A DNA stretch of 42,297 nucleotides from an uncultured Bacteroidota bacterium (GTDB lineage: Bacteria; Bacteroidota; Bacteroidia; UKL13-3). Below the pieces are notes generated by a model. It worked only from the letters and a program-made list of their open reading frames with translations. It made no database searches and had not been told where the DNA came from. Position numbers and translations under genes: made by a program. The DNA lies in the NCBI GenBank assembly GCA_903898215.1, contig CAIUEQ010000288.1:1-42297 (forward strand), in the 5' to 3' direction. How positions within the stretch are numbered: the stretch's first letter is position 1; each line of letters starts with the position of its first letter. This document shows, one piece after another, positions 3,074 through 32,918 of this stretch.

Positions 3074-4951
3074 ATGTATAAATCATTATTAACGTTAACA
3101 ATTTTTTTTGGGTCGATTTCAGTTTCAATTTCACAAAATTTCACTCCTTGTTTAACAGATCAAATTCATCAACAGGCAATCCTCAAAAATCCTGAAATTA
3201 TCCGGTATGAAAATGCTGCCAATAAATTAGCCAACGAGCAGACTAACACTATACCATTATTTAAAACAGGAGCTATCTATTTCATTCCTGTTGTGTTTCA
3301 TATCATCCATCAAAGCGGTACTGAAAATATTTCTCAGGCACAAATCATGGATGAGCTAAGAATTTTAAATGAAGATTACAGAAAGTTGGGAAGAGATGCA
3401 TCCGATAGTTTAAGTACAAACCCGTTAGCTGCTGATATGCAAATAGAATTCAGGCTTGCACAATATGATCCAAACGGAAAAAAAAGCGATGGTATTAATC
3501 GCATAGCAAGCACACTTACTGTAAATGCCGATAACAGTGTTAAATCTTTGAGTTATTGGGATAGCAATCGATACTTAAATATTTGGGTGGTGAATTCCAT
3601 CAATAACACAGCAGCGGGTCAATTAGGAACTGTTTTAGGATATGCTCAATTTCCATGGGATAGAGTTTCTTATCCCACAACTGATGGAATTATTGTAAGA
3701 GCTGATCAAATTGGTACGGTTGGAATTGGCCAAACTTCACAAGCCGGACGTACCTTAACACATGAAATTGGACATTGGCTAGGATTGTATCACCCTTTTC
3801 AGGATGGTTGCGTTGGCGGAACATCATCTAATTGCAGTACTCAAGGTGATAAAGTTTGCGATACACCTCCGGTTTTATCACCAAGTTTTGGTTGTTCCAC
3901 CAATCAAAATTCTTGTAGTAACGATTCACCGGATTTACCCGATCTTGTAAAAGATTATATGGATTATGCTGATGGAACTTGTATGAACTTGTTTACTTAC
4001 GGTCAGAAAAATAGAGTTTTCAGTATTAGTTTTACCGGTTCGGCAAGTAATTACAATAGAGTAACTGCAGCATCTGCAAACAATCTCGTTTCAGCAGGAA
4101 TTGGAGCTACCGGAAATTATTTATCAGTAAGTGCGTCTACCAAAAAAGCGCCTTATACTTATGGTTTTGAAAGTTCAGGTTCACTTGCCACAGACGGATG
4201 GATTTTAAATAATTTTAACAATCCTACAAACGGGTGGCAAATAAAATCAACAGCTTTCCAAAGCGGAAGCAGCTGTATCATGCTTCCAAATCTTACCAAT
4301 GCAAGTAATACACGTGATGGTTTTCAATCACCAGAAATTGATCTTACAACAGTTGCCACACCTTTTTTAAACTTTTACTGTGCGTATGCTCAAACTAATC
4401 CTTCTTCAAATGATATATTGAATGTTTATATTTCTGATACATTTGGAATAGATGAAAAATTGCTATGGACAAGCAATGGTGGAAGTTTGTCAAACGGAGC
4501 ATTACAATATCCTTCAGCATATATTCCTAATTCATCACAATGGAAACCAATTACAATTAGCCTTTCTTCATATAAATATTTTACTCATGCCAGAGTGCGT
4601 TATGAATTTCAAAATCGCAGGGGAAATAATATTTACATCGATAATTTCAGCATATCAAATACTCCGTTATCAGGAATTGATGAAGCAAAAAAACTATTAT
4701 ATAAATTCAGTCTTTATCCTAATCCACTAAATTCAATGGCAACAATATCCTATGAATTACAGCAAAATGATAAGGTAAAAATATTGCTGTATGATATGAT
4801 GGGCCGAGAAGTGATGATTGTTGAAGATGCTCAGATGGAAAGTGGTTTACATACATTGACTATCAATAAAGGAAACCTTAATTCAGGAATGTATTTTATT
4901 CGTTTTGAATCCGGTGAAAACACCTTCAATCACAAGCTATTGATTAATTAA
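3074..4951 (+). CDS. secreted zinc metalloprotease, M43/pappalysin-like, with T9SS type A C-terminal sorting domain
   Basis: HEIGHWLGLYH (HExxHxxGxxH, codons 3771-3803), Met-turn-like KDYMDYADGTCMNLFTYGQ; C-terminal FSLYPNPLNSMATISYEL…GMYFIRFESGENTFNHKLLIN. Confidence 0.85.
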   Translation: MYKSLLTLTIFFGSISVSISQNFTPCLTDQIHQQAILKNPEIIRYENAANKLANEQTNTIPLFKTGAIYFIPVVFHIIHQSGTENISQAQIMDELRILNEDYRKLGRDASDSLSTNPLAADMQIEFRLAQYDPNGKKSDGINRIASTLTVNADNSVKSLSYWDSNRYLNIWVVNSINNTAAGQLGTVLGYAQFPWDRVSYPTTDGIIVRADQIGTVGIGQTSQAGRTLTHEIGHWLGLYHPFQDGCVGGTSSNCSTQGDKVCDTPPVLSPSFGCSTNQNSCSNDSPDLPDLVKDYMDYADGTCMNLFTYGQKNRVFSISFTGSASNYNRVTAASANNLVSAGIGATGNYLSVSASTKKAPYTYGFESSGSLATDGWILNNFNNPTNGWQIKSTAFQSGSSCIMLPNLTNASNTRDGFQSPEIDLTTVATPFLNFYCAYAQTNPSSNDILNVYISDTFGIDEKLLWTSNGGSLSNGALQYPSAYIPNSSQWKPITISLSSYKYFTHARVRYEFQNRRGNNIYIDNFSISNTPLSGIDEAKKLLYKFSLYPNPLNSMATISYELQQNDKVKILLYDMMGREVMIVEDAQMESGLHTLTINKGNLNSGMYFIRFESGENTFNHKLLIN

Positions 4952-15969: not shown

Positions 15970-16848
15970 TTATACAGAAGCTGTTATTGCATCTTTTTGA
16001 ATCTTTTTGACCAAACCCTGCAACACATTTCCGGGTCCGCACTCAATAAATTCGGTTGCTCCATCAGCAACCATGCTTTGTATACTTTGAGTCCAACGAA
16101 CCGGAGCTGTAAGTTGAGCGATTAAATTATTTTTTATTTGGTTTACATCGGTAACAGCTTTTGCCGGTACATTTTGATAGATCGGACAAACAGGTGTATT
16201 AAAATTAGTTGATAAAATAGCTTGTTCCAATTCAACACTGGCAGGTTTCATTAAAGGAGAATGAAATGCACCACCAACAGGTAATACTAAAGCACGTTTA
16301 GCTCCGGCAGCTTTCATTAATTCGCAAGCTTTATTTATTCCTTCAACCGATCCCGAAATTACCAATTGTCCTACACAATTATAGTTTGCAGGAACAACAA
16401 TTTCATCTGTAATCGAGGCACAAACTTCTTCTACTTTTGCATCATCCAAACCTAAAACTGCAGCCATTGTTGATGGTTGTATTTCACAAGCTTTTTGCAT
16501 TGCCATTGCACGTTTATAAACTAAACGCAAACCATCTTCAAAGGTTAATACTTTATTGGCAACAAGAGCCGAAAACTCACCGAGAGAATGCCCTGCAACC
16601 ATATCGGGTTTAAAATCTTCCCCTAAAATAATTGCTTTAATAACAGAGTGTAAAAAAATTGCCGGCTGAGTAACGCGAGTTTGTTTTAGCTCTTCATCTG
16701 TTCCGCTAAACATGATATCTGTAATCCTGAAACCTAGTATTTGATTTGCATTTTCAAAAAGATTTTTTGCTGCAATATTATTATCGTAAAGGTCTTTGCC
16801 CATACCTATAAATTGTGATCCTTGTCCTGGAAATAAATATGCTTTCAT
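15970..16848 (-). CDS. fabD: malonyl-CoA:ACP transacylase
   Basis: AYLFPGQGSQFIGMGKDLYD, VAGHSLGEFSALVA, GGAFHSPLM, EFIECGPGNVLQGLVKK. Confidence 0.95.
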   Translation of the reverse strand: MKAYLFPGQGSQFIGMGKDLYDNNIAAKNLFENANQILGFRITDIMFSGTDEELKQTRVTQPAIFLHSVIKAIILGEDFKPDMVAGHSLGEFSALVANKVLTFEDGLRLVYKRAMAMQKACEIQPSTMAAVLGLDDAKVEEVCASITDEIVVPANYNCVGQLVISGSVEGINKACELMKAAGAKRALVLPVGGAFHSPLMKPASVELEQAILSTNFNTPVCPIYQNVPAKAVTDVNQIKNNLIAQLTAPVRWTQSIQSMVADGATEFIECGPGNVLQGLVKKIQKDAITASV

Positions 16849-16974: not shown

Positions 16975-19900
16975 TTATAAATCAAATTCAATTAAAAATT
17001 CTGTTCCTTTTCCCACTTCACTTTTTACACTTATTTTCCCTCCAAGAGTTTCCACTTGAGTTTTAACCATAAACAAGCCCATGCCTTTTCCTTCAGTATG
17101 TGAATGGAACCGTTTATATAATCCGAAAATTTTATTGCTGTTTCGTACAAGATCGATTCCTAATCCGTTATCTTTAAAAGTTATGAAAAATTTATTGTCA
17201 ACTTTTTTACTGCTAATATCAATTAATGCATCCTCATTAATTCTTCGGTATTTAATACTGTTTGAAATTAGGTTATAAAACACACTATTGATATAACTTT
17301 TTAAAGTAAACATTTCATCTATCTCACTAAAATCACTTTTTATTATCACTTCATTTTCACCAATTTTTAAACCCATAAAAAACTTAATGTCATTTACCAA
17401 TTCGGTAAAACTTATTTTCTCCTTCTTCTCATTTATAACTTGTTTTAACTGTAAAATATGATTCAAATCTTGTATCACATCATCAAGTTTATTTACAGAA
17501 GTAAAAACACCATTAAGCATTTCGTCTTTTTCCGTTTGTTGAAGTTCTACGGTTTTTAAAATATCATTAAAGCCTTTGATATTTGCTACCGGTGAACGCA
17601 AGTTATGAGAAACGATATAAGTAAATTGTTCAAGATCTTTGTTTCGCTTAATTAAATCATCGGTAATATTTTTATTATGTTTTTCGGCCGCTTTTCGTTC
17701 GCTGATATCCGAATGAACACCAATTGATCCAACTACGTTTCCAGCTGAATCTAAAATTGGTGTTCCACTTATTGAAACCCAAATTAGTTCTCCATTCTTT
17801 TTTCTCAACTGAATCTCATAAGTATCAGATTTCTTTTCTAATCGGAGGTTATGTTTTTCTTTAAACAAATTTTTCTGTTCTTCGTCTACAAATATTTTGA
17901 AAGCAACTTTCCCAACTAATTCGCTTGGTGTATAACCCGTAATTTGAAACATCCTATTGTTTGCATACTGTATCACATCATCATTATCAACCGACAGCAA
18001 ACCTTCGTTCATGGTATGAATTAACAAGCGATATTTTTCTTCACTTTCAATTATTTGTTTTTCAGCAATTTTGTTTTCCTCCGAAGTTTGAATATTATTT
18101 ATTGCAAATGAGATATTTTGGGTAACTTTTTCGAGTAATTCAATTTCTTCTTTGCTTGAGAAAAAGTTTTTTTCGTTACTATAAATTACAAATACCCCAA
18201 TTACTTTTTCCCTAACTTTTATTGGAATAGATATACTTGAACGATACCCTCTTTTTAAGGCATTGTCTCTCCATGGTGCCATAGAAGGATCGTTTTCGAT
18301 ATCATCACTAACAAATGTTTTCCCTTCTCTGATAGTTTTACCGATTGGACCATTTCCACTTGAGGTATTTGCGCTTGAAACGATAAATGCATTTTTAAGA
18401 TATCCGTCTTCGTGCCCTGACCAAGCTACTGCATTAACACTATCATTTTTATCATTTATTAAACCAATCCAACTCATATAAAACTTACCATATATAATTG
18501 CTATATCACATATTTCATGATAGAGGTTTTCAATAGATTGCGCACGTAATACCAAATAATTAACCTGACTGATAAATTCGTAAAGGCGATTTATTTTCAA
18601 TAATCTTTCTTCAGTTTTTTTTAGATTGGTAATATCTGAATTGAAACCATACCAAGTTATAGTTCCGTCATCCAATTTTTCGGGAGTTGATTTCGAATAG
18701 ATCCACTGAATTTCTTTGCCCGGAATTTGAACTCTGAATTCGCATGTAAAATAAGATAAATTTTTTGCCGAATATTCAATATCGTGTATCACCCTTTCAG
18801 CATCATCCGGATGTAAAACTTTACCAATAGGCGTAAAATCATCAACAACATCTTCGGGATTACATCCAAAAAGATTTTTAATACCTGATGAAGCAATTGG
18901 AACGAAATAGGTTCCGTCAATTCTTCTTGAAAACTGAAAAATCAAATCAGGAACATTATCAGATAGTTTTCTAAACTCTAAATCTTTTTCACGAATTTTA
19001 GCTTCGGCAAGTTTACGATCAGTAATATCAATAATGATAGAGTGGATATAACTTTTACCTCCCATAATAACCGAGTTACCTAATACTTCCATATCTCTAA
19101 CACTACCATCGGCTAATTGATGTTTAACCTGTATATTATATTTATTAAGTCGGTGGGTTTCTTTTAAATCATTTCGAAGTTGTTCGTCTGTTTTATTCAC
19201 ATTTATTTGACGAATATTCATTTTCTTTAATTCCTCTCTACTCCACCCATAAAATTTTGCTGCAGCATAATTAGCATCAATAATTTTCCCGGTTTCGGGT
19301 TCTAAGATGTATTTTATGGCTGAATGATTTTCAAAAAGTTTTCGATAATCCTCTTCGCTTTGTCGCAATTCGTTTTCCAAAACTTTGCGCTCATTAATAT
19401 CTGATACCGCGAGTATTACTCCAACAATATTTTTATGTAAATTAAGCGATGGAAACAAACGAATATGGTACCAATGTGGCATTCCGGATATTCCACATAA
19501 ATTACTTTCGATTTTAAAAATATTTCCTTTTAAAGTTTCAGGTAGTTCAACTTGGAATTTATCATTTAGAAAACCAGTAACAAAATTTAAAATGTTTTTA
19601 CCGATTACTATTTCAGTTCCAAATTCTTTTTCAAGAAATTTTTGAATAATGGTATTGAAAGATTTAACCTTAAAATCTGTATCCATTAATACAAAACCTG
19701 TAAATGAATTATCGAAAACCGAACGAATATTTGCTTCCGATTTTTGAAGATTAACAGTTTGTTCCAATAAATTTTGTTGTTCTGTTATTAGTGTTTTTTC
19801 AGACACTTTTCTTTCTGAAATATCAATGAATGAACCAAACATACATTGTGGTTTCCCACTATCATCAAAAACAATGTTTGCCGAAAATTCCACATCAAAT

Positions 19901-20667
19901 AAAGAGCCATCCATTCTTTTCCCGATATCTTCTCCACTATCAAATCCTTTAGTTATTAAAGCTTGAACTGTTTTGTGAATTCGATCTCCATGAAAAACAG
20001 TGGTAAGATTTTTTCCAATTAGATCATTCATGCTTTTACATCCCCACATTTTTACAAGAGCTTCGTTTGCATATATAATGTTTCCTGAAAGATCAGTCAT
20101 TCCCATTCCGCTTATTGATTTAGAAATGGCTTCTTCTTTTAATTTTAAATTTTTTTCGAAAATTTCTCTTTCCGAAATATCAGTAATATGTGCCAATAAA
20201 AATTTCTCTCCATTGTTTAAAAATGTTTTAAGCACAATACTCACCCAAAAGTTATTGCCGAAAGTACTTTCTGAATCAACTTCGATAATTTGCACCTTGG
20301 AAGTTTTAATGGCTTTTTCGGCAGCTGAAAGCATACCTGATTTTTTCCAAGATTTTATTTTACGAAAATTCTGTTTACAGAGTTGTTCAACAGATCCACC
20401 TGTAATTTTTGCAATTGCTGGGTTTGCATAAACACATATCCCCGACTCAGCTTGATAAATTAATGTTCCTATTGGCGATGCCTCAATAATTTCCTGATTA
20501 AAAATTGTGGAATGAGAAAAACTTTGGGTTGGTTTTGATTTACTTTTTAAGACGGAATCAATTTTTTTAGGTGATAATTTTGATGCAGTTAACCGTGTAG
20601 CATTTTTTTTTGCAGCACCTTTTGGTTTGACAGAATTTTGCTTCATAAATAAATCAAATAAATTCAA
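16975..20667 (-). CDS. multi-PAS/GAF sensor histidine kinase
   Basis: Repeated PAS/PAC ends (ITDISERE, FIDISERK, VSDINERK, IIDITDRK, NSDITNLK, HSDISERK), a GAF-like segment (RGYRSSISIPIKVREKVIGVFVIYS), HisKA YIVSHNLRSPVANIKGF and HATPase motifs NSIKYR, DNGLGID, GKGMGLFMVK. Start could be 20646. Confidence 0.9.
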   Translation of the reverse strand: MNLFDLFMKQNSVKPKGAAKKNATRLTASKLSPKKIDSVLKSKSKPTQSFSHSTIFNQEIIEASPIGTLIYQAESGICVYANPAIAKITGGSVEQLCKQNFRKIKSWKKSGMLSAAEKAIKTSKVQIIEVDSESTFGNNFWVSIVLKTFLNNGEKFLLAHITDISEREIFEKNLKLKEEAISKSISGMGMTDLSGNIIYANEALVKMWGCKSMNDLIGKNLTTVFHGDRIHKTVQALITKGFDSGEDIGKRMDGSLFDVEFSANIVFDDSGKPQCMFGSFIDISERKVSEKTLITEQQNLLEQTVNLQKSEANIRSVFDNSFTGFVLMDTDFKVKSFNTIIQKFLEKEFGTEIVIGKNILNFVTGFLNDKFQVELPETLKGNIFKIESNLCGISGMPHWYHIRLFPSLNLHKNIVGVILAVSDINERKVLENELRQSEEDYRKLFENHSAIKYILEPETGKIIDANYAAAKFYGWSREELKKMNIRQINVNKTDEQLRNDLKETHRLNKYNIQVKHQLADGSVRDMEVLGNSVIMGGKSYIHSIIIDITDRKLAEAKIREKDLEFRKLSDNVPDLIFQFSRRIDGTYFVPIASSGIKNLFGCNPEDVVDDFTPIGKVLHPDDAERVIHDIEYSAKNLSYFTCEFRVQIPGKEIQWIYSKSTPEKLDDGTITWYGFNSDITNLKKTEERLLKINRLYEFISQVNYLVLRAQSIENLYHEICDIAIIYGKFYMSWIGLINDKNDSVNAVAWSGHEDGYLKNAFIVSSANTSSGNGPIGKTIREGKTFVSDDIENDPSMAPWRDNALKRGYRSSISIPIKVREKVIGVFVIYSNEKNFFSSKEEIELLEKVTQNISFAINNIQTSEENKIAEKQIIESEEKYRLLIHTMNEGLLSVDNDDVIQYANNRMFQITGYTPSELVGKVAFKIFVDEEQKNLFKEKHNLRLEKKSDTYEIQLRKKNGELIWVSISGTPILDSAGNVVGSIGVHSDISERKAAEKHNKNITDDLIKRNKDLEQFTYIVSHNLRSPVANIKGFNDILKTVELQQTEKDEMLNGVFTSVNKLDDVIQDLNHILQLKQVINEKKEKISFTELVNDIKFFMGLKIGENEVIIKSDFSEIDEMFTLKSYINSVFYNLISNSIKYRRINEDALIDISSKKVDNKFFITFKDNGLGIDLVRNSNKIFGLYKRFHSHTEGKGMGLFMVKTQVETLGGKISVKSEVGKGTEFLIEFDL

Positions 20668-20864: not shown

Positions 20865-23252
20865 TCAACTCTCGCTTCGCAATTTTCTTCTATCAACTTC
20901 GATGCCTTTATTTTTTAAAAATCCGGCATTGGAGCGCAAACGTAAAAACCATAATACCCGAACTTCTTTATAGAAAAAATTAGTTGTTTCAATTTTTCTT
21001 TTAAACGTATTATAAAATGCAAAACCAACTGAAGTTGAAGAATTTCCTATGGAATCATGTTTATGAAAATAGATTGGAAATACGCTTTTGGTAACTGTTC
21101 CTGCAACTTTACAATCGGCATATAATAAGTAAAGCAAGCGTCTGTCGTAATCGTGATTATCAAAATTAACAGCACTAAAAAGTGGTCCCAAAATATGATG
21201 ATTGCTATAAATTCCTTGTTGCTTTTTATAGGTATATGCTTGCCACAAAAAATGATAACTTTTAAATTCAGGAGATTTATATTTATAAAAAAATGGAAAT
21301 AATCCCCAGAAATTTGCTTTGCTTGTATTGTTCAACCAAAATATTGGTGCAAGATGAAATGCAGTTTGTATAGCTGATTTTTTATATCCTACAATCGGCC
21401 AAATTAATTGATAACTGTTAGAAGTATCGGTTTTAAAATGCTGGTAAGCGATTAACCCAAATAAATCACTTTGAAGGTGTGAAGGCTTATAATACGAATG
21501 ATAGTATAAAGGGAAAAGCAATGAGGTAGTCCGTTTTTGAGATTCGATATCCCAAAACAACGGAGTAAATACTAAATGATGGTTATGATTGATTTTACTT
21601 TTCCCAAAAGAAAATAATGGAAAAAGTGTTTTTGATTGATACTGTTTATTAAAGAAGGAATGATAAAACGGAAATAAAAATTGCTGTGATGATGATGCAT
21701 TTTTGAAATTTAAAAATGTTGGAAACACATAAAGTGAAAAGTTGTTTGTTGCATCATTGTAACGATATCTGTAAAATGGAAAGAGTGAACGTGTATGGAT
21801 ATTTGATCTGTCTAAATTCCAAAAAACAGGAAATAGCACTGTTGAATTATTTGTATACGCTTTAGAGTAACGCACTTCTCCGGATGATTCATGATAATGC
21901 CAGTAAATAGGAAACAGCACATCAGTTTTCAATTCAAATTTATTTCTGTTTGTGTATTCAAACGACTTTCGATAATGCCAAATTAATGGAAACAATACGT
22001 GATAATTTTCAATACTTGACGAATCAGAATGATGTTTTAACCACCATAATGGAAATAAAAATTTGCGGTCGGTTTTAACATTGGAAATATGCCAATAAAT
22101 TGGTGTGATATTGCTATAAGAAGTTACTATAGAATCCCATGCCCTAAGTATTTTTCCTTTTCCATAAAATGGCATCACCCCAACATAATCATTTGAACTT
22201 TGAAAATGTCCATCATAAAAAGTAACCGAATGATGATTCCAGTAAATTGGAAAAATTGTGGTATTGTTTTTAGAATTATAGTTACTATCATTTAATGATG
22301 GGTTAATGTAATTCACATGACTTTTATTTCTGAAATACACTGGAAACAAAACAGTGCTGTGAATGGTATCATTTTTTAAAGTTTGATTCTTTTTCCAATA
22401 AACAGGAACCACAAAATGAAAATTATAACTCGGCTTATTGATGTTCCATACAAATGGAGTAAACCCATAAAATGTTTTATGCTGTACGTTATTTTTTCCG
22501 TAGCCAAAAAAAGGCATCATCAAAAATGAGCTATGTTCTGGCCTTTGATAACGCCATACAATAGGGAAAACTACATCATTTTTAATATCAACATTTCGTT
22601 TCCTGAAATAAAATGGAAAGGCTGTAAACCTATTGTTGTTTTCGGCTTTATGCTTGAAAAAAAATATTGGGAAAACCCATGTTGATGAGTTAGATAAATT
22701 AGCCTGACGAAAATAAAATGGCACTAAACTGCTAGTTGATTCTGCTTTATTTCGGTAATAATAATAAAGTGGGAAAACCATAAATTCAGACTTATCGTTT
22801 ACTTTATCATTTTTATACCACAGAAAAAACAATAGATTATTTTTTAAGTAATCACCATTATCTGATCGTGAGTATTCTAATAAATCGATGCCGGGAACAA
22901 TTTCCAATACTTTATACGATTGAATTCTTGAAATAAAATTATTGGTATACCTATAAACACTCGGATAATATAAACTTCCAACTCTGACATCTTTTTTTAG
23001 TGAATTAAAACTGTAGGTATAAACAGGAAGTAGATGAGTATGAAGATCGTTATTGATTAAATTTTTTCGGTAAGTAAAAAGTGAAGCTGCAACTTGTACT
23101 CGTTTTTCGGAATCTGTTTTATCACGATAAACTATCGGCCATAAATGTATGTTTCTTCCACGGGTAATTCCGAAATCCGATTTCATGTCGTCTTGAGCAA
23201 ATGCATGAAACGAGAGTAAAATAATCGTACATATGGTAAAAAACTTCTTCAA
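20865..23252 (-). CDS. exported repeat protein of unknown function with about 30 '[h]P[IVLF][YFW]' aromatic units
   Basis: Signal peptide MKKFFTICTIILLSFHAFAQ; repeats such as VFPLYYYYR, AFPFYFRKR, LFPVYFRN, IFPIYWNHH, LFPLWWLKHH, LFPIYWHYH, LFPVFWNL, LFPLYYHSY, VFPIYFHKH. Confidence 0.8.
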   Translation of the reverse strand: MKKFFTICTIILLSFHAFAQDDMKSDFGITRGRNIHLWPIVYRDKTDSEKRVQVAASLFTYRKNLINNDLHTHLLPVYTYSFNSLKKDVRVGSLYYPSVYRYTNNFISRIQSYKVLEIVPGIDLLEYSRSDNGDYLKNNLLFFLWYKNDKVNDKSEFMVFPLYYYYRNKAESTSSLVPFYFRQANLSNSSTWVFPIFFFKHKAENNNRFTAFPFYFRKRNVDIKNDVVFPIVWRYQRPEHSSFLMMPFFGYGKNNVQHKTFYGFTPFVWNINKPSYNFHFVVPVYWKKNQTLKNDTIHSTVLFPVYFRNKSHVNYINPSLNDSNYNSKNNTTIFPIYWNHHSVTFYDGHFQSSNDYVGVMPFYGKGKILRAWDSIVTSYSNITPIYWHISNVKTDRKFLFPLWWLKHHSDSSSIENYHVLFPLIWHYRKSFEYTNRNKFELKTDVLFPIYWHYHESSGEVRYSKAYTNNSTVLFPVFWNLDRSNIHTRSLFPFYRYRYNDATNNFSLYVFPTFLNFKNASSSQQFLFPFYHSFFNKQYQSKTLFPLFSFGKSKINHNHHLVFTPLFWDIESQKRTTSLLFPLYYHSYYKPSHLQSDLFGLIAYQHFKTDTSNSYQLIWPIVGYKKSAIQTAFHLAPIFWLNNTSKANFWGLFPFFYKYKSPEFKSYHFLWQAYTYKKQQGIYSNHHILGPLFSAVNFDNHDYDRRLLYLLYADCKVAGTVTKSVFPIYFHKHDSIGNSSTSVGFAFYNTFKRKIETTNFFYKEVRVLWFLRLRSNAGFLKNKGIEVDRRKLRSES

Positions 23253-23302: not shown

Positions 23303-23947
23303 TCAATTAAAACTTTTAAAATCCTGAAATGCTTGTATCAGCACATCTAATCTAATGGTATGTTTACGCTTGCCAACCCAAAGTGTGGTAGTTGCTAATT
23401 CAAGAGGGTCAGAAAAAACTTTTTTCTCGATACTTACAAATACATCATTTTGAATTGTCAGATCAATAGAACTTGAAGAGCCAACTGGCGGTGCTGCTTT
23501 ACTAAATTCAAATTTTAATTTATCGACATTGGCCAAAAACGTATTGCAATTTTCAACAGAAATAGTTGTGAAGTAAATCGACAAATCTCCTAACTGTCTG
23601 ATAAAATCGTTTCCACGAACATTTGTATAAAGGTCGTTCACATCAAAATAATATAGGCTATCGTACAAGTAAAACTGTTTTGCAATTTTATGAGAACCAA
23701 TAACCAGACATTTTAAATTATCACTTTTAAAAGCCACTAATTCGATCTGAGCTTTATTGGTCATCTCTTGCTCACGAAACAATAATTTAGTTTTGCTTGA
23801 AATGATTCTACCCGTTTCGTGTTGCTGAAGATTATTTTTAATATAATAATCGTAAACGTTTGTAACCGAATTACTGCAAGATGTGAGTATGGTTACTGAA
23901 ATAATAATGTAAAAAATTATGTTGCTGTTTTTGACGCGAAATTTCAT
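23303..23947 (-). CDS. hypothetical lipoprotein
   Basis: Signal with lipobox-like TILTSC. Confidence 0.65.
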   Translation of the reverse strand: MKFRVKNSNIIFYIIISVTILTSCSNSVTNVYDYYIKNNLQQHETGRIISSKTKLLFREQEMTNKAQIELVAFKSDNLKCLVIGSHKIAKQFYLYDSLYYFDVNDLYTNVRGNDFIRQLGDLSIYFTTISVENCNTFLANVDKLKFEFSKAAPPVGSSSSIDLTIQNDVFVSIEKKVFSDPLELATTTLWVGKRKHTIRLDVLIQAFQDFKSFN

Positions 23948-24001: not shown

Positions 24002-24427
24002 TCATTCCCCATAATATTCTACAAATTGATTTTCGGTTTCAAATAATTTTATGCAATGAAGCTTTCCATTTTCGATATGAGGTTCGAGCTGTTTCCAAAT
24101 CTCCACAACAATATTTTCGATACTTGCCATCTTGCCTTTCATAAAATCAACATCCAAATTGATATTCTTATGGTCGATTTTATCTAATACAAATTCATGC
24201 ATCACATCCTTTAATTTTCTTAAGTCCATCACCATTCCTGTATTTTCATCAGCAACACCTTTTAGGGTAACATAAATATCAAAATTATGACCATGGTAAT
24301 TTTTATTGGCACATTTTCCAAAAAACTGCTCATTCTGTTCATCTGTCCAACGTGGATTAAACAATCGGTGAGCAGCATTAAAATGAGCTTTACGGGTAAT
24401 ATAAACGATGTTTTTTTTATCTGACAT
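24002..24427 (-). CDS. 6-pyruvoyl-tetrahydropterin synthase / QueD-like protein
   Basis: ITRKAHFNAAHRLFNP, CANKNYHGHNFDIYVTLKG, GMVMDLRKLK, DHKNINLD, TIENI-like ASIENIVVEIW; start at 24427 preferred. Confidence 0.9.
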   Translation of the reverse strand: MSDKKNIVYITRKAHFNAAHRLFNPRWTDEQNEQFFGKCANKNYHGHNFDIYVTLKGVADENTGMVMDLRKLKDVMHEFVLDKIDHKNINLDVDFMKGKMASIENIVVEIWKQLEPHIENGKLHCIKLFETENQFVEYYGE

Positions 24428-24588
24428 CCTATTTAAATTTTTGTGCAGCAAATATACTCACCTATCGGAAACACACTAACATACGTCAGCATTTTATTCC
24501 TATTTAAAAATCATAAGGCTTTTCTTAAATATGAACTGCTGTAAATGTTCCTAGAATCATTATTTTTGAGCGTTTAACAAATAATCAG

Positions 24589-25686: not shown

Positions 25687-28600
25687 TTGAAAATTCAGTT
25701 CAAACATTATTGGTTATTACTTACTGCAGGGCTTTTGGCTTTTTCATTACTGGTGTGGCTCGAGCATAAACAAAACAGTAATGTTGAATTTCAAACTCAA
25801 AAAGCTTATTCCGAAACACAAAGGATCATCAATGAGAAAGAGTTAACCTTCGTAAAAATTACCAACAAATTAATTCCTGATTCATCAAAACTTCAACGCA
25901 ATTGGACTTCCATTATTGAAATTGCTCATGATGAAAATATTATTATTCAAGTTTATAAAAACGATACCATAATTGTTTGGAGCAGCAATGAAATTGATAC
26001 CAAGCAATGTTTAAGTGAATTTAAAACCGGGTCGAGTTTTTATCAGGGTGTGAATGGAAATTATTTAGCCTACAAAAATACAACAGGCTCTTTTTCCTAT
26101 GTTTTGCTGTATGCGATAAACTCTAATTATGCGTTTAAAAATCAATACATCAATAATCATTTTAATACCGAGCTCTCATTTATAAAAGATGGTTTTGTAC
26201 TTCCAAAAGCTGTCGAAAATTTTAAAGACATTAAAGACATCACAGGAAATTATCTTTTCTCCATACAAATTTTTACGTCTTCAGAAAAAATAAATCATGC
26301 CATTTCCATCCTTTTATTGATTGTAATCTTAATCAATTTACTGCTCATACATTTAATTGCTAGGAACTATATTCAAAAATATTTTTGGCAAACATCTGTC
26401 ATCTTTTTTGCAGCATTTTTTATTATTCGTTGGGTTAATATTTATTTCCAATTGCCTGTTTCCATTTATGAAATAAAATTGTTTGACCCTTCTATTTATG
26501 CTTCATCATTGTGGTTTCCGTCACTCGGAGATTTATTGATTGATACCATTATTTGTTTTTGGTATTTGATTATTTTAGAAAATGTGTCTTCCAAAAAAGC
26601 TAAAACTGAAGCTGCTACTTCAGGAATAAAATGGTTTTGGGTAAAATTTATTTCATTATTATTACTTTCTCTTGCAAGTGCTCACCTCGCATTCAGTTCA
26701 ATTAAAAGTTTAACCATCGATTCGCAGATATCTTTTAATGTGAGCAATTTTGCTTTAGTAAATCAGTTTACTCTTGTAGGAATTATTGTTGCTATTCTAT
26801 TACTATTATCGGTGTATTTTATATGCAGAAATTTTGTAAGAACTACTCAAAGTCGTGATGAAAAAAATATAGCATTGATGGTTAGTGTTGGAGTTTTTAT
26901 CACTCTTACTTATACCCTCTTTGTAAAATATTATTTCAAAACAGATACCTTTCAATTACTGCTTCCGGTAAGCATACTCGCAACCTTCATCCTGTTTAAA
27001 CTTTTTATCAAACAGCTAAATCGCTTCCCTCAATATTTTGTTGTCGTATTTATTATTTCAGGATTTATCTCCATCACAATTACTCATTGGGTGAATATTA
27101 AAGAAAGGGATAATAGGAAACTATTTGCAGGAAAACTTGTCACGCAAAATGATATTACTACAGATTATTTTTTAAGAACAATTGAGAAAAAAATAGCCGA
27201 TGATAAAAATATCACAGATTATTTTTTGTACTTTTTTACAAAATCAAAATTTGAAAAACGTATCAAACAGCTATATTTTACAGGATATTTAAGCAGGTTT
27301 GAAGTAAGTGTTTTGGATTATGATACTTTAGGTTTTGACCTGAAACAAAAAAATTCGTACAGCTATTCTCAGATAAATAAAACCTACGAAAAACAAACTC
27401 TCGAAACCATTGATACCTATTTCAGATACATCAATGGAAGTTCAACCTTAAAAGGATATTTGGCAAAATTTACGGTTCAGAAAAAAGGAAACCGTGTAGG
27501 ATATTTATTCATTTTATTGCAACCAAAATTAATTCAGGATGAAAACAGATTTGATGAATTACTAATTGAAGGCTTTCGTCAAAATAAGAAGAAAATATTT
27601 GATTATTCGTATGCCGTTTATAAAGATAAACATCTGATTTTTCAAAGTGGCGATTATCCCTATCGAATTACAAATACCTGGGGTGAAGCTAGAGACAGCT
27701 TCAGGTTTTTTACTGAGAATAATTTTGATCATGTACTTTTTACCGATTCACAACCTCTTACCATTGCTGTTAGTAAACCTGCCGATTCAGTGATTCAGAG
27801 TGTTGCTTTATTCTCTTTTATATTTACGTTTTGTACGTTAATTCTGATTTTCATTTTATTTATTTACATCGGTATCAATGCGAAGTTTTTCAGGAAAAAT
27901 AAATTGCTGGAAAATTCATTCTCACGTAAAATCAGAAATGTTTTTAACCATTTTCTGTTGGTAGAAAATCCTGATATTTTATACATACGTACACGAATTC
28001 AAACTTCAATTATTTTCATCGTATTTGTTACGCTAGCGTCAACATCCTATTTCACTGTTTCATTCATCACTCAAAAATACAATAGCCGACAAACGGAACG
28101 ATTGATGAAAAAATTACGCAACGTGGCAATCACTATCGAAAATGAAAATATCACCGAGATGGATGATAAATCAAGTGGTGAGCTCGAAGCGTTTATAAAC
28201 CAAATAGCAGATGTGTATGACACTGACGTAACTTTGTATGATGTAAATGGAAAGGTAATGGCTTCAAGCATTGGAAAAATTTATGATGAAGGAATTGTTT
28301 CAGAGTTGATGAATCCTGGAGCATTTTTTCATCTCAATTTTTTAAAAGAATCACAGTTTAGCCAGAACGAAAATATTGCAGCATTGGATTTTCAAGCAGC
28401 ATATTCACCGGTATTCAGAAAAAAATCAGAACTTTTGGGTTACCTGCAACTTCCATATTTTAGTCAGAAATCAGATCTCCTCAATGAAATTTCTTCTATC
28501 ATCATCGGCTTTATAAATTTGTATGTTCTGTTATTTATCATCATCGGAATTATCGCTTATTTAGTTTCACGAAATATTTCTTATCCGTTAATTCTTATTC

Positions 28601-29415
28601 AACAAAAATTATCACGCACCGTTTTGGGAAGTAAAAATGAACCCATCAACTGGCATCGTGATGATGAAATTGGAGAACTTGTAAAACAGTATAATTCGAT
28701 GATCTTACAACTCGAGGAAAGCGCAAAAAAACTTGCTGAAACTGAACGGGAAGGCGCTTGGAGAGAAATAGCCCGACAAATAGCTCACGAAATAAAAAAT
28801 CCACTCACACCGATGAAGCTTAGCATTCAACACTTGCAAAGGGCTTTTAAAAACAAGGATGAGAATATTGAAGATAAAATAAATCGCACAACAAATTTAT
28901 TGGTAAACCAAATTGATACGTTAAGTGAACTTGCAACCGAATTTTCATCGTACGCAAAAATGCCTGCACCGAGTTATGAAAAGTTAAATGTAAAAAACTC
29001 ACTCGATCAACTTGTTGAACTTTATAGTGCCAATACCGACACCAAAATATTTTTAGAATGTGATGATCACATAGAAATAAATTTCGATCGTTCATACCTG
29101 AGCAGAAGTGTTGGAAACATCGTTAAAAATGCAATCCAGTCGATTCCTGAAGACAAGGAAGGAAAAGTTGAAATTACTGTTACCGAAGATAATGAAACCA
29201 TCACCATCAACGTTAAAGACAACGGTAGTGGTATTACTGATGAGCAAGCTGAGAAAATATTTATGCCCTATTTCAGTACAAAAATAAGTGGCATGGGACT
29301 CGGACTACCATTGGTAAAAAATATGATAGAAAGCGGAGGAGGAAAAATAAGTTTCAAAACAATGCTGGATATCGGTACAGAATTTACAATTACACTACCA
29401 AAGAATACAACCTGA
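25687..29415 (+). CDS. NtrY-like membrane sensor histidine kinase with HAMP domain
   Basis: Multiple TM segments, HAMP-like linker, EIARQIAHEIKNPLTPMKLSIQHLQRAF HisKA, NAIQSIPEDKEG, DNGSGI, GMGLGLPLVKNMIESGGG; TTG start. Confidence 0.9.
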   Translation: MKIQFKHYWLLLTAGLLAFSLLVWLEHKQNSNVEFQTQKAYSETQRIINEKELTFVKITNKLIPDSSKLQRNWTSIIEIAHDENIIIQVYKNDTIIVWSSNEIDTKQCLSEFKTGSSFYQGVNGNYLAYKNTTGSFSYVLLYAINSNYAFKNQYINNHFNTELSFIKDGFVLPKAVENFKDIKDITGNYLFSIQIFTSSEKINHAISILLLIVILINLLLIHLIARNYIQKYFWQTSVIFFAAFFIIRWVNIYFQLPVSIYEIKLFDPSIYASSLWFPSLGDLLIDTIICFWYLIILENVSSKKAKTEAATSGIKWFWVKFISLLLLSLASAHLAFSSIKSLTIDSQISFNVSNFALVNQFTLVGIIVAILLLLSVYFICRNFVRTTQSRDEKNIALMVSVGVFITLTYTLFVKYYFKTDTFQLLLPVSILATFILFKLFIKQLNRFPQYFVVVFIISGFISITITHWVNIKERDNRKLFAGKLVTQNDITTDYFLRTIEKKIADDKNITDYFLYFFTKSKFEKRIKQLYFTGYLSRFEVSVLDYDTLGFDLKQKNSYSYSQINKTYEKQTLETIDTYFRYINGSSTLKGYLAKFTVQKKGNRVGYLFILLQPKLIQDENRFDELLIEGFRQNKKKIFDYSYAVYKDKHLIFQSGDYPYRITNTWGEARDSFRFFTENNFDHVLFTDSQPLTIAVSKPADSVIQSVALFSFIFTFCTLILIFILFIYIGINAKFFRKNKLLENSFSRKIRNVFNHFLLVENPDILYIRTRIQTSIIFIVFVTLASTSYFTVSFITQKYNSRQTERLMKKLRNVAITIENENITEMDDKSSGELEAFINQIADVYDTDVTLYDVNGKVMASSIGKIYDEGIVSELMNPGAFFHLNFLKESQFSQNENIAALDFQAAYSPVFRKKSELLGYLQLPYFSQKSDLLNEISSIIIGFINLYVLLFIIIGIIAYLVSRNISYPLILIQQKLSRTVLGSKNEPINWHRDDEIGELVKQYNSMILQLEESAKKLAETEREGAWREIARQIAHEIKNPLTPMKLSIQHLQRAFKNKDENIEDKINRTTNLLVNQIDTLSELATEFSSYAKMPAPSYEKLNVKNSLDQLVELYSANTDTKIFLECDDHIEINFDRSYLSRSVGNIVKNAIQSIPEDKEGKVEITVTEDNETITINVKDNGSGITDEQAEKIFMPYFSTKISGMGLGLPLVKNMIESGGGKISFKTMLDIGTEFTITLPKNTT

Positions 29416-32400
29416 TGAGGAAATTTTTTGTGTTTGTATTTATGATTATAGTTTGCAGTGCAACAATGCATGCCCAGCAACTAAATAATATTCGAACAAA
29501 AACTTTTCTCGCTACCAACGACACCATTTTACTCGACTCTCAAATTATTTTTAAAGGTTCGGTTTCAATAAGCTCTAACGAAAAAATATTGATAGAATCG
29601 GTCGATTTCAAAATTGACTATCTCCATTCCCAACTCATCATCCTGAATATTCCTTTGAACACAAAATTACAAGTTCAATATAAAGTACTGCAGCTTGATA
29701 TAGGAAAACCATACGCACATAAGGATAAAAAAATTATTCAGAGAGAATATTACGAAACAAGAAATCCATTTTTATACACTCCCGATGCATCAAATAAAAT
29801 TGATATTTTTAAAAATGACGGATTAAAAATGAATGGAAGTTTATCTCGTGGATTGGCTTTTGGAAACAACCAAAATGTGGTGCTAAATTCAAATTTAAAC
29901 TTACAACTTGCCGGAAAATTAAATAACGATATTGATATTTTAGCTGCAATAAGTGATGAGAACAATCCCATTCAACCTGAAGGAAACACACAGCAATTGC
30001 AAGATTTCGATAAAGTTTTTATACAGTTGAGTAAACAAAAAACAAAATTGATCGTGGGTGATTTCGAAATGAAACGTCCTCAAAATAGTTACTTCATGAA
30101 CTATTTTAAAAAATCTCGTGGACTCGAATTACAATCGGCAATTGACATAGGTAAAAATGGTGTGCTAAGTTTTAGTGGTGATGGTGCATTATCGCGTGGA
30201 AGATTTTCAAGAAATGTAATTAATGGGGTAGAAGGAAATCAAGGTCCTTATAGATTAAGCGGTGCTAATGGTGAAACTTTTCTGATCATCGTTTCGGGAA
30301 CTGAAGTGGTGTATTTGGATGGAGAAAAATTAAATCGTGGAGAACAAAATGATTATGTGATAGATTATAATTCCGGTACAATTTCATTTATGCCGAAACG
30401 ATTGATAAGCCAATACAGTAGGATCATCGTGGAGTTTCAATATTCCGATAAAAACTTTTCTCGTTCTGTTTTTCATTTTAATACCGAGTACGAACAAAAA
30501 AATGCTTTCCGCATACGTACAAATTATTTTATGGAACAGGATAATAAAGATCAGCCATTATTACAAAATTTAAACGATACCGATAAGGCCATTTTAGCTT
30601 CTGTGGGAAATAATTTAGATCAGGCTCTTGCTCCAAGTGCAACTAAAACTAATACCTTTTCTATCAGCAAAATTCTATATCGAAAAATTGATACTGCAGG
30701 TTATTCAGGAATATATTTATTTACAGATAATGCAAATTCAGACACTGTTTTTTATGAACTGAGTTTTTCTTTTGTTGGTGCCGGAAAAGGAAATTATGTG
30801 CTTTCACAAAATCCTGCAAACGGAAGAGTATTTAAATGGATAATGCCTGTAGGTGGTGTAAAACAAGGGGACTACGAACCTGTAACTTTATTGGTGAGCG
30901 CTAAAAGAATGCAAATGCTGACACTCGGAGTTGATTTGCTGGCAGCAAAAAATTCAACGTTAAGTATTGAAGTTGCACATAGCGATTTTGATAAAAATTT
31001 ATTTTCAGATTTTGATAAAAAAAATAATGGAGGAAATGGAATAAAAATAAATGGCAGCAATATTATTTCGCTTGAAAATAAACCTAAAGATTTCTGGAAT
31101 TTAAAAACAGAAGCAAATTATGAATTTGTAGATCAAAATTTCAGATATGTGGAACGCTACAGAAATGTGGAGTTTGAAAGAACATGGAACAGACAATTAA
31201 ATAACCGGCAAACTCAGGATACAGGTTATAAAGAAAATATTTTTTCGGCAAAAGCTTCACTCAACAAATCAAGCATCGGAAGTATTTATTATCAAGTAGG
31301 ATATTATAATCGCGCTGCTGCATTTAACGGAATGCAAAGTTTTGCAGGTACAAATATTCATTTCCTGAAAAATATTTTCAACTCCGAATTTGAATGGATA
31401 TCATCTTCAAATAATACTTCAAATCAAATTTTAAATAACGATGTTACAAGATATAAAATTGATTATGGAAGAGAATTTTTAAAGATGATTGCAGGAGTAA
31501 AATACGAATCTGAAAAAAGTAATTTCAGAAGCAATGCCGACTCGTTACAGAATGGAAGTTTTTATTATAACCAAACAACATTTTACCTCAAAAACAGCGA
31601 CACCACACAACTTAGATACAAAGTTGATTATGCACAACGTCAGGATTTTTTGCCAAAAATTGCGGATTATTCAACAGCAAGTTTGAGTAGAAATATTAAC
31701 GGAACAATTGAGTGGTTGCAAAAAAACAATAACAGGCTTTCTGGAAATTTTACTTATAGAGATTTTATTGTTAGCGATACCAACTTCACAAAACTGAAAC
31801 CCGAACAAACAATTTTATCTAGAATAGAATACGATTATCGTTTTTTAAAAAAGGTATTTAGTGCAAATACTTATTTGCAATTAGGTTCGGGAAATGAATT
31901 GAGAAAAGATTATCAGTTTCTTGAAGTGCCCGTTGGACAAGGTATTTACGTATGGAAAGATTTTAACAATGACGGCAAACAACAACTCAACGAATTTGTG
32001 GTGGCATCATTTATCGAAAAAAATCAGGCAAATTTTATCAAAATATTTTTACCAACTACTTCTTCCATTCGTACCAACAGCAACCAGTTTAATCAAACAC
32101 TTAACATCAATCCAAATGTGATATGGAATAATAAAAGCGGATTGAAAAAATTTATTGCACGATGGAATAATCAAACGGCATTAAAAATTGACAGAAAGAC
32201 AACTGTCCTCGATAATCTGGATTTTTTAAATCCATTTAAATTAAATGTTAATGACAGCCAATTAATTTCTCTTTCGTCAGTGATACGAAACAGTTTATTT
32301 TTTAATCGTTCCGACCCAACATTTGGTTTCGATATCAACTACCAGGATAACAGAAATAAAATTTTCCAAACAAGCGGCTTCGACTCCAAACACCGCGAAG

Positions 32401-32918
32401 AAAAAGGTGCCAACGCAAGATGGAATTTTTCGAGAACCTGGGGAATTTCATGCGGTTTTAATTCAGGAACACGATCATATTATTCCGATCTTTTTAAAAA
32501 CAACGATTACAGCTATCAGTTTTATGAGGTAAAACCAAAACTCATTTATCAGGTGAATAAAAATTTACGGACAACTTTTTTGTTCAGCTATTTTGAAGCT
32601 GCAAATTTTTATAATGGAACACAAACAGGAACAAACCGCGAAGTTGGTGCAGAGGTAAGATACAATGTTGGCACAACAGGTGCAATCAATGGGAAATACA
32701 GTTTGTATCAGGTAATTTTTAACGGTGAAAATATTTCGAGCCCTGTTGGATATGATATGCTAAACGGGTTTACAGTTGGACAAAATTCTGTATGGAATAT
32801 CAGTTTCCAACAACGCATCGGAAGCAACCTGCAAATAAATTTAACTTACGATGGACGAAAATCTGAAAGCGCAAACATTGTGCATGTAGGCAGAATGGAA
32901 GCGAGGTATATTTTTTAG
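29415..32918 (+). CDS. large exported protein, probable outer-membrane beta-barrel, function unknown
   Basis: Signal peptide MRKFFVFVFMIIVCSATMHAQ; 1167 aa with long stretches of alternating amphipathic segments, ends in aromatic residue (…GRMEARYIF); overlaps kinase stop by 1 nt. Confidence 0.6.
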   Translation: MRKFFVFVFMIIVCSATMHAQQLNNIRTKTFLATNDTILLDSQIIFKGSVSISSNEKILIESVDFKIDYLHSQLIILNIPLNTKLQVQYKVLQLDIGKPYAHKDKKIIQREYYETRNPFLYTPDASNKIDIFKNDGLKMNGSLSRGLAFGNNQNVVLNSNLNLQLAGKLNNDIDILAAISDENNPIQPEGNTQQLQDFDKVFIQLSKQKTKLIVGDFEMKRPQNSYFMNYFKKSRGLELQSAIDIGKNGVLSFSGDGALSRGRFSRNVINGVEGNQGPYRLSGANGETFLIIVSGTEVVYLDGEKLNRGEQNDYVIDYNSGTISFMPKRLISQYSRIIVEFQYSDKNFSRSVFHFNTEYEQKNAFRIRTNYFMEQDNKDQPLLQNLNDTDKAILASVGNNLDQALAPSATKTNTFSISKILYRKIDTAGYSGIYLFTDNANSDTVFYELSFSFVGAGKGNYVLSQNPANGRVFKWIMPVGGVKQGDYEPVTLLVSAKRMQMLTLGVDLLAAKNSTLSIEVAHSDFDKNLFSDFDKKNNGGNGIKINGSNIISLENKPKDFWNLKTEANYEFVDQNFRYVERYRNVEFERTWNRQLNNRQTQDTGYKENIFSAKASLNKSSIGSIYYQVGYYNRAAAFNGMQSFAGTNIHFLKNIFNSEFEWISSSNNTSNQILNNDVTRYKIDYGREFLKMIAGVKYESEKSNFRSNADSLQNGSFYYNQTTFYLKNSDTTQLRYKVDYAQRQDFLPKIADYSTASLSRNINGTIEWLQKNNNRLSGNFTYRDFIVSDTNFTKLKPEQTILSRIEYDYRFLKKVFSANTYLQLGSGNELRKDYQFLEVPVGQGIYVWKDFNNDGKQQLNEFVVASFIEKNQANFIKIFLPTTSSIRTNSNQFNQTLNINPNVIWNNKSGLKKFIARWNNQTALKIDRKTTVLDNLDFLNPFKLNVNDSQLISLSSVIRNSLFFNRSDPTFGFDINYQDNRNKIFQTSGFDSKHREEKGANARWNFSRTWGISCGFNSGTRSYYSDLFKNNDYSYQFYEVKPKLIYQVNKNLRTTFLFSYFEAANFYNGTQTGTNREVGAEVRYNVGTTGAINGKYSLYQVIFNGENISSPVGYDMLNGFTVGQNSVWNISFQQRIGSNLQINLTYDGRKSESANIVHVGRMEARYIF

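Follow-up and report, generated by a model that had tools for sequence, protein, structure and literature searches.

The question raised by this locus is what kind of molecule is made by a large exported protein in which a short aromatic-proline motif recurs in tandem, and whether that protein belongs to any known family. The window, i.e. the whole stretch of 42,297 nucleotides that was analysed, carries the open reading frame on the minus strand (23252-20865), and it encodes a 795-aa protein with a signal peptide, as the preliminary description had proposed. A same-genus relative shares the TTG start (at 23252 in the window) together with its context ATTGAAGAA. The gene and the parts of its product are listed here.

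20865..23252, minus strand: repeat protein gene, 795 aa, TTG start at 23252 and stop codon at 20867-20865; the same-genus orthologue has 58% identity and dN/dS ~0.16
23193..23252, minus strand: signal peptide, residues 1-20, LKKFFTICTIILLSFHAFAQ, seen in the sequence, with a helix at residues 2-18 predicted in the AlphaFold model and the same type in relatives with an intact N-terminus
22785..23192, minus strand: conserved N-terminal domain, residues 21-156, from alignments of relatives
21522..22784, minus strand: repeat array of 17/19/21-residue units, residues ~157-577, from unit counts, spacing and the super-repeat HMM
20868..21521, minus strand: C-terminal domain, residues ~578-795, from alignments of relatives; no T9SS-tail match in Pfam/NCBIfam scans

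The signal peptide reads LKKFFTICTIILLSFHAFAQ and is followed by DD; its type is kept in all relatives intact at the N-terminus. The N-terminal domain contains the motif FDFGITRxKNxxLWP ... YYPSLF ... NNLFFxWYKND, and the C-terminal domain ends with ExRxxWFxRLRSNxxxLKxKGI, a polar terminus. Aromatic residues make up 21% of the protein and its pI is 9.7, within the range of 9.3-10 found across all family members. The protein has no lipobox, comparison with the relatives' sequences reveals no aromatic beta-signal at the C-terminus, and Pfam and NCBIfam scans find no T9SS sorting tail, in line with the earlier reading of the translation. Because a signal peptide is present without lipobox, T9SS tail or outer-membrane beta-signal, the protein most likely resides in the periplasm or at the outer membrane. 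The host genome carries a T9SS (SprA and about 141 T9SS tail matches were found), and one of these tails belongs to an M43-type metallopeptidase in the window (3074-4951).

The repeat in the window protein is real and far above chance. The mature protein contains exactly 17 literal FP dipeptides, close to the count made by eye, against a mean of 3.7 in shuffled sequences (maximum 10 in 2000 shuffles). The longer pattern FP[IVLF][YFW][WYF] occurs 11 times against 0.05 in shuffles, and the strict form [hydrophobic]P[IVLF][YFW] 22 times against 1.06. A broad pattern gives 27 units against 2.5, so that the original figure of about 30 units was slightly generous but fair. The units had been described as separated by variable linkers; instead, they recur at fixed distances of 17, 19 and 21 residues. 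Across the family, the distance from proline to proline is 17 residues in 324 cases, 19 in 85, 21 in 90 and 23 in 11. Between 13 and 25 residues, 515 spacings are odd and 45 even, counts that are not independent since the units share ancestry. The relatives G164 and L098 follow a strict unit order of 21+17+17+19+17, which makes a five-unit super-repeat of 91 aa, repeated about ten times. An HMM built from 39 copies of this super-repeat matches every member scanned, and the window protein itself shows seven stretches at E < 1e-6 within residues 136-645. The order of unit lengths is nearly identical in the window protein and its same-genus orthologue.

Predicted structures give this spacing a physical meaning. 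The AlphaFold model of the window protein with ten relatives is all beta and places two strands in every unit, at a mean pLDDT of 46. A model of four L098 super-repeats reaches a mean pLDDT of 65, with ~70-82 across the first ~200 residues (two super-repeats). The inputs comprised 9-11 usable sequences, and with these mean pLDDT values and pTM of 0.32 and 0.49 the confidence is moderate at best. The regular beta structure expected earlier is thus predicted as strands, two per unit, at low to moderate confidence (mean pLDDT 46 and 65); the barrel or multi-blade form suggested for it is not supported. In the L098 model, each unit consists of a strand of 5-6 residues, a polar two-residue turn, a second strand of 5-6 residues and an F-P-L turn. 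With 6+2+6+3 = 17 residues, one even and one odd turn produce an odd unit length, and added pairs of residues produce units of 19, 21 and 23 residues. The odd spacing, mostly 17/19/21, is what is expected if hairpins lengthen by residue pairs. The repeat unit is therefore probably a two-strand beta-hairpin of 17, 19 or 21 residues. Antiparallel pairing of the strands is suggested by hairpin logic and by the kind of fold matched, rather than by coordinates: in a Foldseek search of the PDB, the top matches of the repeat model are antiparallel meander sheets, with TM of 0.26 or less. The models, at moderate confidence, and the spacing parity favour one antiparallel hairpin per tandem unit, an assignment that is based on predicted structure.

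The same data bear on two other arrangements of the strands. The unit could instead form one coil of 17-21 residues in a parallel beta-solenoid; a flattened coil would accommodate units of constant length with two short strands apiece, and corner prolines and aromatic ladders are known in solenoids. We consider this doubtful, as the exact two-residue length steps suit hairpin extension better and the closest folds in the PDB are antiparallel meanders rather than solenoids. An integral outer-membrane beta-barrel, with each FP unit as one membrane-crossing strand, would agree with a Sec-exported, aromatic and beta-rich protein, and the 10-residue hydrophobic stretch in each unit could span a membrane. 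Outer-membrane barrels, some of them TonB-dependent, are also among the PDB matches of the repeat model. This barrel is nevertheless improbable. It would need up to ~80 strands in relatives, in widely variable number, and indels of one and three units would flip all later strands. The models give every unit a pair of strands, each 5-6 residues long, proline would fall in the middle of every strand, and the C-terminus bears no aromatic beta-signal. Judged from predictions, membrane-length strands, a fixed strand number and a terminal beta-signal are all missing. A meander with a single strand per unit was also considered and is disfavoured by the one- and three-unit indels.

Returning to the repeat array, comparison of relatives indicates that its length changes by whole units. 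A single clean indel of 55 aa, equal to three units, distinguishes two relatives that are 91.5% identical and evolve under purifying selection, and L098 contains four-unit blocks in which one 17- or one 21-residue unit is missing. Whole-unit indels of both kinds show the units behaving as autonomous modules. Near-perfect five-unit super-repeats of 91 aa are seen at L098 6837-11054 and L103 7361-11668. Adjacent copies in L103 share up to 88% DNA identity, which suggests ongoing duplication of super-repeats there.

The relatives thought possible elsewhere were found, with a patchy distribution. Within the window's family, whole-genome searches recover them from 9 of 66 genomes, in 3 of 14 genera; across its class, 13 of 392 genomes contain relatives, spread over 10 of 195 genera and nine families. 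The only match in a phylum sample of 398 genomes is the window's own genome. These searches sampled the family, class and phylum (Bacteroidota) and cover relatives outside Bacteroidota poorly. In the contig search, a single protein as query gave no match and an alignment as query gave 10 loci. All named records of relatives are metagenome-assembled Bacteroidota. The relatives are ~780-1830 aa long, and several others are truncated by contig ends. All those intact at both ends follow one layout, in which the signal peptide leads into a conserved N-terminal domain, then an array that varies, and last a C-terminal domain that is again conserved. When a tree is built from this C-terminal domain, the window's genus and the nearest genus group at full support, with weak deep branches. 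Between the window gene and its same-genus orthologue (58% identity), dN/dS is ~0.16 with dS near saturation; values of 0.12-0.17 were also obtained. These values indicate that purifying selection acts on the repeat gene. They also weigh against reading the protein as a disordered low-complexity aromatic sequence or its gene as decaying, which the variable polar linkers and the low AlphaFold confidence on the window protein might suggest. With terminal domains conserved across families and strands regularly predicted as well, we find such disorder or decay very unlikely.

The preliminary description recognised no named family, and the searches bear this out. Against Pfam-A, NCBIfam, PHROGs and PADLOC, the window protein matches no family at E <= 1, and its relatives give sub-threshold or repeat-inflated matches alone, with no family cut-off reached. 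Sequences in the PDB offer no credible match to a solved chain, the search for a plasmid or phage origin of the repeat gene gave no match, and literature searches on the motif and on aromatic repeat proteins turned up nothing relevant. An artificial consensus of three super-repeats scores 30.8 bits against Pfam DUF6358 (cut-off 28.4) with no stretch passing alone, a result that we ascribe to inflation by the repeats across 16 residues. Over two or three stretches, two relatives match the NCBI family LA_1737 (NF047486) of Leptospira (5e-6 and 5.5e-5), as a distant member might. However, these matches reach 23-26 bits (best 26.5), far under the curated threshold of 60; other, unrelated models do equally well on these repeats (e.g. 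a sugar-binding protein at 3e-8 on a consensus repeat), and the window protein has no match; membership in LA_1737 is quite improbable. By these comparisons, the family is absent from the protein libraries searched (Pfam, NCBIfam, PHROGs, PADLOC and PDB sequences).

The genes around the repeat gene have a separate history. The neighbours that define the site are given here.

23303..23947, minus strand: small lipoprotein gene, adjoining the repeat gene; part of the ancestral locus by gene order, not of the repeat system
24002..24451, minus strand: 6-pyruvoyl tetrahydropterin synthase/QueD-like gene (PF01242), syntenic in G051 and G060; locus flank
15970..16848, minus strand: FabD-like gene, the opposite flank; genes 79-81% identical to it lie directly after the lipoprotein in G051 and G060

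G051 and G060, genomes that represent two further genera of the family, have the gene order epimerase-QueD-lipoprotein-FabD with nothing between the last two. The lipoprotein-FabD interval of the window's genus contains the repeat gene along with a signalling gene. The lipoprotein, whose neighbours QueD and FabD are conserved in at least 4 genomes of the family, is by this synteny ancestral to the site. It has no Pfam or NCBIfam match; weak matches (E ~3e-4) occur in another family. The lipoprotein does adjoin the repeat gene, as described before, ending 50 bases upstream of it, and the two may be co-transcribed in the window. As a functional partner, however, it was rejected: relatives keep the lipoprotein without the repeat gene, and other family members have no lipoprotein beside them. 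The proposed survey of gene neighbours yielded no conserved operon either, the relatives' flanks being unrelated housekeeping or surface genes that differ by genus. Two species of a single genus have different signalling genes at this site beside the repeat gene, so that insertions may be frequent in the lipoprotein-FabD gap, making it a hot spot. In the window, a PAS/GAF histidine kinase (16975-20667) lies beside the repeat gene; in L031 (1722-4152), the same site holds a 690-aa ORF and a 126-aa ORF resembling a response regulator. Elsewhere in the window, a 1167-aa ORF with no Pfam match (29415-32918) directly follows a large histidine kinase (25687-29415), and G051 and G060 show synteny for the two genes. 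In one genus, at L034 (5883-7007) and L035 (10946-12067), a gene for a protein of 373-374 aa lies immediately or almost immediately upstream of the repeat gene; Pfam identifies the L034 copy as a WG-repeat protein, and the L035 copy looks similar by its N-terminus only. This proximity may be due to chance.

We see about an even chance that the protein is a Sec-exported, elongated scaffold of beta-hairpin repeats, with array length set between two conserved end domains. Each 17-residue unit would fold into a pair of short antiparallel strands with a polar N/D/K turn between them; a hydrophobic F-P-[LIF] turn, as seen in two models, would connect one hairpin to the next unit. Two or four additional residues per hairpin would account for units of 19 and 21 residues. 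The sequences show that the 91-residue super-repeat consists of five units and is duplicated or deleted by whole units, so that the array between the end domains fixes the length of the molecule. More speculatively, and from composition, the aromatic basic surface might serve as a length-variable scaffold that binds or bridges an acidic envelope or matrix polymer, a role we hold to be rather less than probable. It is possible, and we offer it tentatively, that these are free-standing exported hairpin ribbons of ~30-80 hairpins with a five-hairpin 91-residue super-repeat, aromatic/proline ladders and whole-hairpin evolution, i.e. a molecular ruler or fibre that occurs naturally in the cell envelope of Bacteroidia and that no solved structure closely resembles. 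If the hairpin reading is true, nature would here offer a long series of modular beta-hairpin arrays that have exactly quantised lengths, a super-repeat and conserved caps. Such a series would help to explain how sheets of beta repeats remain soluble while lengthening one whole unit at a time. Annotators would also gain a model for a family of uncultured Bacteroidia that Pfam and NCBIfam currently miss, and the envelope a concrete protein whose location could be studied.

Several known systems resemble such an array in part. WG_beta_rep (PF14903), MORN and choline-binding proteins are built from aromatic, tandem, short beta repeats in variable copy number; their models match no family member scanned. 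YD/Rhs proteins and teneurins share ~20-residue aromatic hairpin repeats, large exported chains and weak fold matches, and a large beta-hairpin repeat protein could be a Rhs/YD-like shell with a toxin, teneurin and Rhs chains being found in those matches. The window family, however, has no YD/RHS motif or Pfam match and no credible match to a YD-repeat, Rhs-core or toxin family; its C-terminus is conserved rather than polymorphic, with no toxin cassette, and no small immunity-like gene follows the repeat gene, so such a shell is extremely unlikely. The top structural similarity of the repeat model is to a model of the putative tail fibre of Pseudomonas phage phiPMW (A0A1S5R1M4; E 2e-7, query TM 0.51), a shape analogy only, at 5% identity and rmsd 13 between two predicted structures. 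The single-layer beta-sheet of OspA has repeated hairpins without a normal core. An engineered mutant of it (e.g. 3cka) is the best PDB match of the repeat model (E 8.8e-4), with TM just 0.16; the mutant is an engineered Borrelia lipoprotein, with a repeat sequence unlike that of the window family. The TCP (G-box) domain of CPAP consists of tandem beta-hairpin repeats in one open antiparallel sheet of ~20 strands (PMC3776556). Foldseek matches this domain (PDB 4bxq) to part of the window model with probability 0.99 and target TM 0.42, at rmsd 9.9 and with a low-confidence window model. CPAP is a eukaryotic centriole protein with PDG turns and a sheet hydrated on both faces, whereas the repeat protein has F-P-L turns and is aromatic, and no sequence similarity was found. 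Belonging to no named family by the searches made, the repeat protein would, on its predicted structure, work like a beta-hairpin repeat protein.
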